Assembly: GCF_003432035.1 (NCBI RefSeq)
Contig: NZ_QOHO01000050.1
Span: 1 to 64,000 of the forward strand
Direction of reading: 5' to 3'
Source: Lacrimispora amygdalina
GTDB lineage: Bacteria > Bacillota > Clostridia > Lachnospirales > Lachnospiraceae
Length of the DNA stretch: 64,000 nt
Position numbers and translations under genes: made by a program. Of this stretch, positions 18,436-64,000 are shown piece by piece (within the stretch, counting starts at the first letter, position 1; the number at the start of each line of letters is the position of its first letter). The notes beneath the pieces are model-generated. The model saw only the letters and a list, made by a program, of their open reading frames with translations, ran no database searches and was not told the origin of the DNA.

Positions 18436-18948
18436 ATGCTTAACAAAGAGATTGTTGCTAAGATAAACAAACAGATTAATTTTGAACTTTACTCCGCATA
18501 TGTATATCTGGATATATCAAATTATTATGCTGACCAGAATTTAAACGGGTTTGCAAACTGGTTTAAAATACAGACTCAGGAGGAGCGGGACCATGCCATG
18601 CTTTTCATGGATTATCTCCTTCAGAATGGGGAGAAGATCGTTCTTTCAGATGTTAAGGCCCCTTCCTTTGATTTCACCGATTTCCGCCAGCCGGCTGTGG
18701 AAGCGTTTGAACATGAGATCAAAGTGACGGCAGCCATTCACGATATTTACGGAGCAGCTTATGAATTAAAGGATTTCCGTACCATGCAGTTCCTTGACTG
18801 GTTTGTAAAGGAACAGAGTGAAGAGGAAAAGAATACGGATGAGATCATTAAGAGATACGATTTGTTCGGCAGCGATGCAAAGGGACTTTATCTCCTTGAT
18901 ACAGAACTGGCGGCCAGAGTGTATACTCCGCCGACACTGGTAATCTGA
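18436..18948 (+). CDS. ftnA: Non-haem ferritin
   Basis: The 170-residue protein stores iron as a 24-subunit shell. Ferroxidase ligands are visible: Glu in NFELYSAY (about 17), Glu/His in EERDHAM (about 50 and 53), Glu in HEIKVTAA (about 94) and the late EEQSEEEKN segment. Length and pattern match bacterial FtnA rather than Dps or bacterioferritin (no haem Met). It has its own upstream region of about 150 AT-rich bases after the secDF terminator and is followed by a terminator, so it appears monocistronic. Confidence 0.95.
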   Translation: MLNKEIVAKINKQINFELYSAYVYLDISNYYADQNLNGFANWFKIQTQEERDHAMLFMDYLLQNGEKIVLSDVKAPSFDFTDFRQPAVEAFEHEIKVTAAIHDIYGAAYELKDFRTMQFLDWFVKEQSEEEKNTDEIIKRYDLFGSDAKGLYLLDTELAARVYTPPTLVI

Positions 18949-59741: not shown

Positions 59742-60140
59742 ATGGATGAAAAGAAAAAAATAGTCAGTAAGATCATTGATTATATTGAAGTAAACTTATC
59801 TGCACCGGAAAGACTGAATGTGGAGGAGATTGCCCGTCACGCCGGTTACTCTAAATTTCATATCAACCGGATGTTTTCTGAAGTCACGGGCTGTACCATT
59901 CACCGGTATGTTAAGGAACGCAGGCTCAGCGAGGCGGCGAGGAAACTGGTTATGGAAGAGGACTCCATCGCAAGGATCGCCCAGGATGCATTATACCAGT
60001 CCCAGCAGGCGTTTACACTGGAATTTAAAAAAGTATATGGCTGTACGCCTATGACATACAGAAAAGCAAGAATTAACAGGCAGCTGAGGCGAAAAGAGGT
60101 GGTCATGAAACACTCCCGGGCCTGGAGGTGTGCAGCATGA
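59742..60140 (+). CDS. Stand-alone AraC-type DNA-binding protein
   Basis: The 132-residue protein is only an AraC DNA-binding domain, like MarA/SoxS: helix-turn-helix 1 at about 25-50 ([25 protein letters not shown]) and 2 at about 75-100 ([25 protein letters not shown]), with a basic tail. It lacks a sensor domain, so its amount rather than a ligand may set its activity. Its TGA overlaps the ATG of the clpP-type gene, which is thus translationally coupled. TATAAT at 59710-59715 is the likely -10. Confidence 0.88.
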
Positions 60141-60727
60141 ATCTGGTTCCTTATGTTGTTGAACAGACCGGTTCTGGAGAACGCAGCTATGATCTGTTTT
60201 CCCGCCTTCTAAAGGACCGGATTATTTTTCTGGGGGAAGAGGTGAGCGATGATTCTGCAAAGCTGATTATCGCACAGCTGTTATTTCTGGAATCCCAGGG
60301 TCCGGAAAAAGATATTTCCTTTTACATTAACAGCCCCGGAGGCTCGATAACAGCCGGTCTTGCAATTTATGATACCATGAAGTTTATCCGCTGCGATGTC
60401 TCCACCATCTGCCTGGGAATGGCGGCCAGCTTTGGGGCATTTCTTCTGGCAGGAGGAACAAAAGGCAAGCGGTTTGCCCTTCCCAATGCGGAGATTATGA
60501 TTCACCAGCCCGGTATATCAGGAGGAATTGGCGGAAAAGCGGCTGATATATTTATTTTTTCGGAAAAGCTTCAAAAGGATAAGAGACGGTTAAACCGGAT
60601 ACTTGGGGAAAATACAGGCCATACTGAAGAAGAGATTGAACGGGATACGGACAGAGATCATTTTATGACAGCATCAGAGGCTAAGGATTATGGAATCATT
60701 GATGCAATTGTAGAAAAAAGAAAATAG
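60137..60727 (+). CDS. clpP: ClpP-family serine protease
   Basis: The 196-residue protease subunit (start ATG 60137, overlapping the previous stop as ATGA, with GGAGG ten bases upstream) has the full triad at standard positions: Ser98 in [11 protein letters not shown], His123 in MIHQP and Asp172. It has Met in place of the usual Gln before AAS. It is joined to an AraC-type regulator, not to clpX or tig, so it is probably an accessory ClpP paralogue rather than the housekeeping copy. Confidence 0.88.
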
Positions 60728-60816: not shown

Positions 60817-61302
60817 ATGAAGGATCAAAAAGAAACAATTCTGGTAAGCGCCTGTCTTTTAGGTGCGAACTGCCGTTATGACGGGAATAATGGAAAAAAT
60901 GAAGATGTTCTGGCACTGCTTGATCAGTATCATCTGGTCCCCGTCTGTCCGGAACAGCTGGGAGGAATGCAGACACCAAGACCTCCCGCTGAGCGCAGAG
61001 GGGAATCCGTCATCAACCAGTCAGGTCAGGATGTGACAGCCTTTTTTGTAAAAGGAGCGGAAGAAACCTTAAAGCTTGCCGAAATTTACGGCTGCAAAAA
61101 GGCTGTTTTAAAGGAGCGCAGTCCATCCTGCGGCCGCGGAATGATTTATGACGGAACTTTTTCCGGAAAAAAGATTCCCGGTAACGGGGTAACGGCAGCT
61201 TTGCTGGAAGAAAACGGAATCGAAGTGATTGGAGAGAGCGGCATTCATTCTCTGATAAACGGAGCGGATAATGAAACAGGTACAGTAAGGAGAAATTCAT
61301 GA
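60817..61302 (+). CDS. DUF523 family protein
   Basis: The 161-residue protein matches the DUF523 (YbbK-like) family with three Cys motifs: SACLLGANCRYDG, PVCPEQLGGMQTPRPPAERRG and LKERSPSCGRG. The Cys pattern suggests an iron-sulfur cluster or thiol chemistry; function is unsettled. Its end overlaps the start of the HD-domain gene, so the two are linked. Confidence 0.85.
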   Translation: MKDQKETILVSACLLGANCRYDGNNGKNEDVLALLDQYHLVPVCPEQLGGMQTPRPPAERRGESVINQSGQDVTAFFVKGAEETLKLAEIYGCKKAVLKERSPSCGRGMIYDGTFSGKKIPGNGVTAALLEENGIEVIGESGIHSLINGADNETGTVRRNS

Positions 61303-61895
61303 TGAAAACAGAGATAACGAGACAACAGGCATTGCAATTACTCATAAAATACAATCAGGAGCCCTTCCATCTTCTTCATGCGCTGACTGTGGAAGGCGTT
61401 ATGCGCTGGTATGCAAAAGAACTGGGCTGCGGGGCAGAAGAAGATTTCTGGGGACTGGCAGGACTTCTCCACGATGTGGATTTTGAGCAGTTTCCCGAGG
61501 AACACTGCACAAAAGCCCCGGAGCTTTTAAAAGAAATCGGCGCAGAGCCAGAGCTGGTTCATGCCATATGCAGTCATGGATATGGAATCTGCTCTGAGGT
61601 AAAGCCGGAACATGAGATGGAAAAGGTTCTTTTTGCATCAGATGAACTGACCGGTTTAATCGGTGCAGCGGCCAGAATGCGTCCTTCAAAAAGTGTTATG
61701 GATATGGAAGTATCCAGCTTAAAGAAAAAGTATAAGGACAAAAAGTTTGCTGCCGGCTGTTCCAGAGAAATCATTGAAACCGGTGCCGGATATCTCGGCT
61801 GGACATTAGAGGAACTATTTGAAAAAACAATACTTGCCATGCGTTCCTGTGAGGAAGAAGTGAATCGGGAGGTGGAGGCTTTGAAGGGAAAATAA
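61299..61895 (+). CDS. HD-domain phosphohydrolase-like protein
   Basis: The 198-residue protein has an HD-type metal site: His in LLHALTVEGVM, HD in AGLLHDVDFEQFP, and a following His in HAICSHGYG. AAGGAG precedes two adjacent ATGs (61299 and 61302). It ends ALKGK-stop. The last codons, G GGA AAA before TAA, form a classic -1 slippery heptamer (61886-61892), preceded by the ribosome-binding-like GGGAGGTGGAGG (61868-61879). Slippage would fuse it to the arginase-like frame that follows, which has no normal start. Confidence 0.85.
   Translation: MMKTEITRQQALQLLIKYNQEPFHLLHALTVEGVMRWYAKELGCGAEEDFWGLAGLLHDVDFEQFPEEHCTKAPELLKEIGAEPELVHAICSHGYGICSEVKPEHEMEKVLFASDELTGLIGAAARMRPSKSVMDMEVSSLKKKYKDKKFAAGCSREIIETGAGYLGWTLEELFEKTILAMRSCEEEVNREVEALKGK
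61868..61895 (+). promoter_or_regulatory. Possible programmed -1 frameshift signal
   Basis: GGGAGGTGGAGG (61868-61879) is followed seven bases later by G GGA AAA (61886-61892) and the TAA stop. The heptamer is correctly phased to the HD-domain frame. This is the arrangement of an internal Shine-Dalgarno-stimulated site as in dnaX. A stimulatory structure downstream was not clear. Confidence 0.4.
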
Positions 61896-62647
61896 AACCG
61901 GTTACCATATTTAATTTTACAGATGTTTACAAAAGACAGGATTTCTACAAAACGGTTCCTTACGACTGGGTTGACTGTACTGATTTAACCGGAGTTCATG
62001 GCTTTTGTGACAGCGTATCATTGGCTGAGATTGAGCGCAGGGCTGAAAAAACAGGGGGCAGCTTCCGGTTTCTAGACAGCGGAAATTTTCATTATGTCAG
62101 CTACGTACTGCAAAAGAACTGCAAAGAGCCTTATGATCTGGTGGTTTTTGACCATCACGCAGACCTGCTTGCTTCCAGCTTTGAGGGAATCCTCTCCTGC
62201 GGGAACTGGATCCGCCGGATACTTAAGGAAAATGATTTCTTAAAGCGTGTTATTTTAATCGGTGTGTCCGATGAGCTGGCCTGTGCAGTCAGGGAGGAGT
62301 TTAAGGACAGAGTGAAGATATATACAGAATCGGAGTTATCCGGAACTGACTGGATATCAGACTTCGCCGGACAATTGAAGGATCCTGTGTATTTATCTGT
62401 AGATAAAGATGTATTTTCTTCCAATGAACTCATCACCGACTGGGATCAGGGAAGTATGACACTGGCACAGCTTCATCAGGCATGGGAGATAATCCGCAGG
62501 AAAGAACCGGTACTGGCAGTTGATATCTGTGGGGAATATAACAGCATCAGCGGAGGAAACAGGCGGATTGAAGAGTCGGATAAACGAAACAGCCTGGCCA
62601 ATGAAAAGATATTGAAAATGTTTCTGGAAAAGAGAATTTATGCATGA
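61892..62647 (+). CDS. Arginase/ureohydrolase-family protein, start unresolved
   Basis: The frame encodes a complete-looking ureohydrolase-fold domain with metal motifs VVFDHHADLL (His-His-Ala-Asp) and YLSVDKDVF (Asp-x-Asp). N-terminal residues matching the protein's own fold (VTIFNFTDVYKRQDFYKTVPYDWVDC) begin at about 61892, upstream of the first TTG (62021). Between 61853 and 62021 this frame has no ATG, GTG or TTG. It may be made by -1 frameshifting from the HD-domain gene, start at ATA, or reflect a sequence error. The enzyme class is a guess: agmatinase, formiminoglutamase or similar. Confidence 0.65.
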   Translation: MKPVTIFNFTDVYKRQDFYKTVPYDWVDCTDLTGVHGFCDSVSLAEIERRAEKTGGSFRFLDSGNFHYVSYVLQKNCKEPYDLVVFDHHADLLASSFEGILSCGNWIRRILKENDFLKRVILIGVSDELACAVREEFKDRVKIYTESELSGTDWISDFAGQLKDPVYLSVDKDVFSSNELITDWDQGSMTLAQLHQAWEIIRRKEPVLAVDICGEYNSISGGNRRIEESDKRNSLANEKILKMFLEKRIYA

Positions 62648-62681: not shown

Positions 62682-62710
62682 TTGACAGCTGGTGACAATT
62701 AAGATATTAT
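62682..62710 (+). promoter_or_regulatory. Promoter of the aspartokinase gene
   Basis: TTGACA (62682-62687), 17 bases, TATTAT (62705-62710), a near-consensus housekeeping promoter 48 bases before the start codon. No lysine or threonine leader is obvious in the short leader. Confidence 0.85.
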
Positions 62711-62758: not shown

Positions 62759-64000
62759 ATGAAAAAAGTTGTGAAATTCGGAGGAAGCTCTTTAGCCAGC
62801 GCCAGGCAGTTTGAGAAGGTGGGAAATATCATCCGCGCAGACAAGAGCAGAAAATATGTAGTTCCATCTGCGCCGGGAAAGCGTAACGACAAGGATGAAA
62901 AGGTAACAGATCTGCTGTATCAGTGTTACGATGCGGCTGAAGCGGGAAAAAGCTACAAAAGCATTCTGGAAAAGATCAAAGACCGCTATATGGAAATTAT
63001 CAGCGGACTTTCCCTGAACATGAGCCTTGATGAGGAATTTAATACCATTGAAAAGAACTTCTTAGAAAAAGCAGGCAGGGATTATGCGGCTTCAAGAGGT
63101 GAATATTTAAACAGTCTGATCATGGCTGAATATTTGGGATTTGAGTTTATTGATGCCGCAGAGGTGATCTTTTTTGATGAGGATGGTAATTTTGAGGCAG
63201 AGCTGACAGATCAGGTGCTTTCGGAGCGTTTAAGCCAGGCTGAGGCTGCAGTTATCCCGGGATTTTACGGCTCAAAGAAGGATGGCACCATCAAGACTTT
63301 TTCAAGAGGCGGCTCCGATGTGACAGGTTCTGTAGTGGCAAAAGCGATTCATGCAGATATGTATGAAAACTGGACGGATGTATCCGGTGTTCTGGTGGCA
63401 GACCCGAGAATTATTAAGGATCCGGAAGTCATTGAAACCATTACATACAGAGAATTAAGAGAGCTGGCCTACATGGGCGCCAGTGTACTTCATGAGGATG
63501 CCATTTTTCCGGTGAGAAAAGAGGGCATTCCCATTAATATCCGTAACACGAACAAGCCGGAGGACAAGGGGACTTTAATCGTGGAAAGCACCTGCAGACA
63601 GCCGCGGTATACCATAACCGGAATCGCAGGAAAGAAAGGCTTTTGCTCCATCAATATTGAAAAAGCCATGATGAATGCAGAAGTTGGTTTTGGGAGAAAG
63701 GTGCTGGAGGTTTTTGAAAAATACGGAATCTCCTTTGAGCATATGCCTTCCGGAATTGACACCATGACTGTTTTTGTTCACCAGTCGGAGTTTGAAGAAT
63801 ATGAGCAGTCTGTTATTGCCGGAATCCACAGGGCGGTAGAGCCTGATTTCGTGGAGATGGAATCCGATCTGGCACTGGTTGCGGTTGTTGGCAGAGGTAT
63901 GAAGGCGACCAGAGGGACTGCCGGAAGAATTTTCTCTGCTCTCGCCCATTCCAGAGTCAATGTTAAAATGATCGATCAGGGCTCAAGTGAGTTAAATATC
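62759..64000 (+). CDS. lysC: Aspartokinase (cut by window end)
   Basis: Aspartokinase phosphorylates aspartate at the head of lysine, threonine and methionine synthesis. The visible 414 residues start MKKVVKFGGSSLASA after AGGAGAAAG. The kinase domain (1-285) shows KFGGSS, the IPGFYGSKKDG segment, SRGGSDVTGS and the WTDVSGV region. Two ACT domains follow (from about 300), which normally bind the inhibiting amino acid, here beginning near ITGIAGKKGFCSINI. The gene runs past the end of the window, and would be about 440 residues in full. Confidence 0.93.
   Translation, partial: MKKVVKFGGSSLASARQFEKVGNIIRADKSRKYVVPSAPGKRNDKDEKVTDLLYQCYDAAEAGKSYKSILEKIKDRYMEIISGLSLNMSLDEEFNTIEKNFLEKAGRDYAASRGEYLNSLIMAEYLGFEFIDAAEVIFFDEDGNFEAELTDQVLSERLSQAEAAVIPGFYGSKKDGTIKTFSRGGSDVTGSVVAKAIHADMYENWTDVSGVLVADPRIIKDPEVIETITYRELRELAYMGASVLHEDAIFPVRKEGIPINIRNTNKPEDKGTLIVESTCRQPRYTITGIAGKKGFCSINIEKAMMNAEVGFGRKVLEVFEKYGISFEHMPSGIDTMTVFVHQSEFEEYEQSVIAGIHRAVEPDFVEMESDLALVAVVGRGMKATRGTAGRIFSALAHSRVNVKMIDQGSSELNI

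Follow-up and report, generated by a model that had tools for sequence, protein, structure and literature searches.

How an arginase-family gene is translated when its reading frame lacks a canonical start codon near its 5' end is the question raised by one gene junction of Lacrimispora amygdalina. The window, by which we mean the whole stretch of DNA analyzed (64,000 nucleotides), carries toward its end a DUF523-like gene followed by genes for an HD-domain protein, an arginase-family protein, and an aspartate kinase-like protein. The arginase frame is -1 relative to HD and stays open over 61853-62647, and its first ATG, GTG, or TTG is a TTG at 62021, codon 44 when counted from an ATA at 61892. 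The original prediction had pointed to this missing start, to a phased G GGA AAA heptamer at the end of the HD frame, and to a Shine-Dalgarno (SD)-like sequence upstream, and had read the combination as a possible frameshift producing a fused HD-arginase protein, with an ATA start or an assembly error as alternatives. These descriptive points are confirmed from the sequence, and the features concerned are the following.

60817..61302, plus strand: DUF523-like gene, from its open reading frame and gene order; in this genome its TGA and the start of HD share an ATGA.
61299..61895, plus strand: HD-domain protein of 198 amino acids (Pfam PF01966), TAA stop at 61893-61895.
61867..61878, plus strand: SD-like sequence GGGAGGTGGAGG, with GGAGGTGG in 10/10 genomes of the clade.
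61881..61895, plus strand: mini reading frame of four codons, TTG AAG GGA AAA TAA, following the SD-like sequence and in phase with HD; TTG, a putative start, in 10/10.
61886..61892, plus strand: GGGAAAA heptamer, phased G GGA AAA; the HD frame ends AAG GGA AAA TAA.
61889..61895, plus strand: A_AAA_TAA, slip-capable tetramer ahead of the HD stop, in 10/10 of the clade.
61892..61894, plus strand: ATA, at which the arginase-family gene is proposed to start; it shares bases with the HD stop (ATAA), and L012, L044, and L046 carry ATG in the corresponding position.
61892..62647, plus strand: arginase-family protein, 251 amino acids from the ATA (Pfam PF00491, conserved residues).
61898..61969, plus strand: possible three-way RNA fold, beginning 5 nt past the A_AAA tetramer; weak in this genome.
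62021..62023, plus strand: TTG, first canonical start of the arginase frame; TTA in 9 relatives.
62759..64000, plus strand: downstream aspartate kinase-like gene, from its open reading frame and synteny, running out of the window.

The HD protein scores 22.8 bits against PF01966 and the arginase-family protein 34 bits against PF00491, each with a Pfam cut-off of 22, which places the latter in the arginase/ureohydrolase superfamily. A sequence search of solved structures returned two weak matches for the HD protein (E of 0.025 and 0.093) but nothing for the arginase-family protein. Across 13 arginase-family proteins chosen for alignment, H67, D87, H89, D91, D171, and D173 are invariant, and these we take to be the metal ligands of arginases. 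F9, W26, and G37, all among the first 43 residues, are likewise invariant among these 13 proteins. The names DUF523-like and aspartate kinase-like for the flanking genes are presumptive, the latter being assigned from the sequence.

We sampled 25 Lacrimispora genomes and found a match to the arginase-family protein in 12 of them, namely, this genome, nine relatives at 83-89% identity, G018 at 63%, and G010, which has only a remnant; 13 genomes had no match. All ten genomes that possess the HD-arginase pair, with HD directly upstream, share the same start-less junction and have ATA at the same base. Downstream of this ATA, the first canonical start lies at codon 44-93, and upstream of it an in-frame ATG, GTG, or TTG is absent from all ten. 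Loci L014-L022 are the nine relatives already counted (their coordinates agree) and not independent data. Since ten genomes agree, the assembly error envisaged originally falls away. The ten form one clade (98/100 in a tree of 27 HD genes), so that the ATA arose once on present evidence; its identity in 10/10 genomes is weak by itself because the overlapping HD stop permits only ATA or ATG. We regard the junction as a conserved start anomaly of one clade, for which an AUA start is, judging from these comparisons, more likely than a fusing frameshift.

Substitution patterns indicate that the N terminus of the arginase-family protein (codons 2-43) is translated. Over the ten genomes, dN/dS (Nei-Gojobori) is 0.053 for codons 2-43, so that the approximately 43 residues preceding 62021 belong to the protein, as originally suspected, and 0.114 for codons 44-251. 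The HD gene gives 0.070 in nine genomes and 0.098 when G024, in which HD is broken in the assembly, is included. The N-terminal constraint, the invariant residues located there, and the fact that the TTG at 62021 is not shared together show that coding begins at or before the ATA. We reject the TTG as a common start because it is TTA in the nine relatives; F9, W26, and G37, moreover, precede that codon. A start further upstream in the arginase frame is rejected as well, given that none of the ten genomes has a canonical start there and that the open stretch is merely 8-23 codons and variable in length; G003 has a CTG there and three genomes have an ATC, neither of which is shared. As a separate observation, the HD gene of G024 (L004/L094/L096) is in two pieces and its match to the kinase-like gene is partial, for which indels in the assembly may be responsible.

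Relatives outside the clade have a normal start codon. In L012 (G018, 63% identity), an ATG falls exactly on the ATA column and the start reads GGAGGTAAA ATG AAG CCG GTA; the arginase gene there adjoins the DUF523-like gene and not HD, which is found elsewhere in that genome. L044 and L046 also have ATG at the position aligned with the ATA. The order DUF523-HD-arginase recurs, with ATG starts, outside the genus in L044, L045, L046, and L049 (four genomes, three genera), and the start in L049 sits in an ATGA overlap. Further species in the genera of G070, G156, and G057 (2, 1, and 1 genomes, respectively) brought nothing new. Because of these ATG starts and this gene order, the ancestral arginase-family gene was most likely, as far as sequence comparison can tell, a separate gene with a normal start. 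The original prediction had held that normal starts near 61892 in relatives would speak against it: these exist outside the clade (L012, L044, and L046) but in none of the nine relatives inside it.

We lean, with modest confidence, toward a separate arginase-family gene that starts at AUA 61892-61894 in the ATAA overlap through low-level restart by ribosomes that have finished HD. The ATAA junction would then be an ATGA-like coupled junction with its third base changed, at which ribosomes terminating HD at the UAA would restart at the AUA with low efficiency, the strong SD-like sequence at 61867-61878 perhaps supplying extra ribosomes. The outcome would be a 251-amino-acid enzyme made at a low level and tied to HD translation. 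The ATA start, formerly an alternative, is the best fit to ATA in 10/10 genomes, to a translated N terminus, to the ATG that L012, L044, and L046 have in the same alignment column, and to the lack of any other canonical start, while initiation at the AUA, its re-initiating character, and the low yield are what we infer. In the infC frame of this genome, GGAGGT precedes an ATT, and an ATG follows four codons later; the ATT is taken to be the start by analogy with other species, and its support for the AUA reading is suggestive only.

AUA initiation has precedents in Staphylococcus aureus. There, infC displays a ribosome start peak at AUA, and AUA reporters of ccpN and citZ reached about 10% of the AUG level, with ccpN attaining up to 30% in rich medium (PMC13009471). 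The infC, ccpN, and citZ cases resemble the present one in that an AUA initiator, here a proposed one, is used in a Bacillota chromosome, and their output below that of AUG parallels the low yield inferred here; in ccpN, the non-canonical start and a strong SD are conserved between S. aureus and Bacillus subtilis. They differ in having extended SDs, that of ccpN being suitably spaced, whereas the SD here lies 19 nt off and the proposed start shares bases with the preceding stop in an ATAA (PMC13009471). Termination-reinitiation junctions of the ATGA type share the four-base stop-start overlap with the downstream gene in the -1 frame (PMC6728339), but here the third base of the start is A, and an SD-less E. 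coli reporter in which AUAA replaced AUGA made no product from the downstream gene (PMC9955659). This silent SD-less AUAA reporter and an SD that is misplaced for direct initiation are the main results against the AUA reading.

Coupled starts may do without an SD. From the end of the first GGAGG in the SD-like sequence, the distance is 8 nt to TTG 61881, 13 nt to the heptamer, and 19 nt to the ATA; a strong SD at normal spacing from the ATA is thus lacking, and a second GGAGG, 13 nt from the ATA, is present in this genome only. GGAGG occurs within 35 nt of 115 of the 441 ATG-first open reading frames of this genome, at 4-11 nt in 95 of the 115 and at 19 nt in one, the census having taken the first ATG of each frame, which is not always the true start. 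A distance of 19 nt is outside the usual spacing in this genome and makes the SD poorly positioned for ribosomes to initiate directly at the ATA. GGAGGTGG is found in 10/10 genomes of the clade, with a best duplex of about -14.5 kcal/mol against an assumed anti-SD, and its presence in all ten counts as one event, since they form one clade.

This placement suits a frameshift stimulator, for which the optimum is 10-14 nt, better than direct AUA initiation, as judged from the spacing in the sequence, and the frameshift is the chief rival of the AUA start. In it, tRNA-Lys would slip by minus one where HD ends, on A_AAA_UAA or, in two species, on GGGAAAA. The SD-like sequence upstream, perhaps together with the downstream fold, would assist the slip, and an HD-arginase fusion of ~449 amino acids would be made in addition to the short HD protein; we think this rather unlikely. 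The tetramer Z_ZZN expected at a programmed minus-one site is conserved as A_AAA, in the form A_AAA_TAA, in 10/10 genomes, and an upstream SD-like stimulator, GGAGGTGG, stands 13 nt ahead of the heptamer position in all ten, against 0/17 other HD ends (13 of the genus and 4 of other genera); plain GGAGG is present in 4/17, including L049 and L045, in which the arginase gene follows by ATG. The X_XXZ_ZZN heptamer, in contrast, is conserved in only 2/10: its position reads GGGAAAA in this genome and G003, AGGAAAA in five genomes, and ATCAAAA in three. Although both genomes outside the 8-genome subclade carry GGGAAAA, the arginase gene stays constrained in the eight without the heptamer (dN/dS of 0.057 for codons 2-43 and 0.080 for codons 44-245), and a heptamer-driven slip is therefore not what the whole clade depends on. 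The three ATCAAAA genomes alone give 0.254 for codons 2-43, from very few changes and a set too small to judge, and 0.058 for the remaining arginase codons. The alignment originally advocated thus upheld the missing start (10/10) and not the heptamer (2/10), and of the predicted fusion through G_GGA_AAA, what stands is the conserved A_AAA_UAA and the position of the SD.

The fold at 61898..61969, 5 nt downstream of the tetramer, has 95% of its cells paired, but 0 compensatory pairs among only 6 distinct sequences, and its z-scores, from +1.0 in this genome to -1.8 at best in 5 sequences, are not significant, shuffles being no worse. Among the matches (those in the 12 genus genomes named above and in 79 of 397 genomes), no in-frame HD-arginase fusion was found, since the longest open frame is 352 amino acids against about 449 for the fusion, and in L012 the arginase gene stands without HD. 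In the passages concerned of work on E. coli, GGGAAAA is among the more efficient motifs, although earlier work cited there found it inefficient; A_AA.A is the weakest of six clearly responsive tetramers, and tetramers gave 0.26-5.6% with a strong pseudoknot and barely above background without it, figures that in those passages were obtained without an SD stimulator (PMC4066793). The dnaX and IS3-type minus-one signals treated in the same passages are alike in placing an SD-like sequence 5' of a slip-capable run with a possible fold downstream; they are unlike the present junction, where the heptamer is not kept, the slip site abuts the stop, the fold is unsupported, and no fusion is known (PMC4066793). 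We consider it distinctly unlikely that the clade uses chromosomal minus-one recoding at a stop codon that requires no more than one tRNA slipping on A_AAA_UAA, the ribosome being pulled back by an SD upstream, such that the enzyme exists there only as a rare HD fusion and is free in relatives.

The same SD-like sequence might instead load ribosomes at TTG 61881 to read a minigene, TTG AAR GGA/TCA AAA UAA, from which the arginase frame would be entered by AUA restart or by a slip, so that the enzyme would begin independently of HD. The spacing of 8 nt between SD and TTG is inside the main range of this genome, and both elements are present in 10/10 genomes, but the TTG also serves as HD's own Leu codon and there is no excess conservation: the SD stretch is not unusually invariant, its 9-base invariant run being ninth of the ten longest (the longest is 15). 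We find the minigene quite improbable. Decay of an arginase gene that has lost its start and is no longer meaningfully translated would agree with the 13 of 25 genomes without a match, with the remnant in G010, and with the stop at codon 246 in G016; against it, dN/dS is 0.05-0.11 over 10 species and the conserved residues are retained, which makes decay very improbable. Transcriptional slippage is thought unlikely because the A run is only 4 bases. In L013 (G010), the DUF523-like and kinase-like genes flank an arginase-family remnant with 34 matched residues, which marks a step in the loss of the gene, and in L010 (G016) the stop at codon 246 trims the final residues of the frame.

If the AUA is the start, as we favor, the clade offers a natural AUA start that lies within a stop-start overlap and is common to all ten genomes, an arrangement that was silent in the SD-less E. 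coli reporter cited above, and the tolerance of coupled initiation for non-AUG codons becomes testable. If the slip is true instead, the junction would be a case of chromosomal recoding without a standard slippery heptamer. Gene finders limited to ATG, GTG, and TTG would begin the arginase protein at codon 44-93 in these species and lose conserved residues. Publications on this locus were absent from a literature search that left out most subscription journals, and a survey of prokaryotic frame transitions does not use the term arginase in its main text (PMC3711429).

We considered and rejected the idea that this genome uses ATA starts widely: a census of 682,329 bases (the window plus 38 stretches, about 11% of the genome) yielded no second case, laxer thresholds included. 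Of 106 junctions that passed the coding-score thresholds, 3 had their first canonical start >45 nt past the stop, and the HD-arginase junction was the only ATA among them. Laxer thresholds gave 7/156 and 8/169 delayed junctions, still with one ATA; the other delayed junctions were of -1 TTA or GTA and of +1 types. The census may miss cases because scores and thresholds were set by us and the HD-arginase case itself passed the first threshold narrowly (6.1 versus 6).

Several minor observations concern other junctions and the surroundings of the locus. At 17400-18430 of L110, one of the delayed junctions, a +1 junction, has no canonical start for 193 nt in its second frame and resembles a single gene interrupted by a shift of frame. 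Another +1 junction, at 18945 of the window, was seen at laxer thresholds only, with its start delayed (127 nt, 293 codons). At 60128-60727 of the window, the frame of a presumed ClpP-like protease subunit has a GTG start overlapping the frame of a presumed AraC-type regulator. Between the arginase-family and aspartate kinase-like genes, 62682-62710 reads, by eye, as a near-consensus sigma-A-type promoter (TTGACA, 17 nt, TATTAT), and a similar promoter-like sequence comes after HD in several relatives without the arginase gene.
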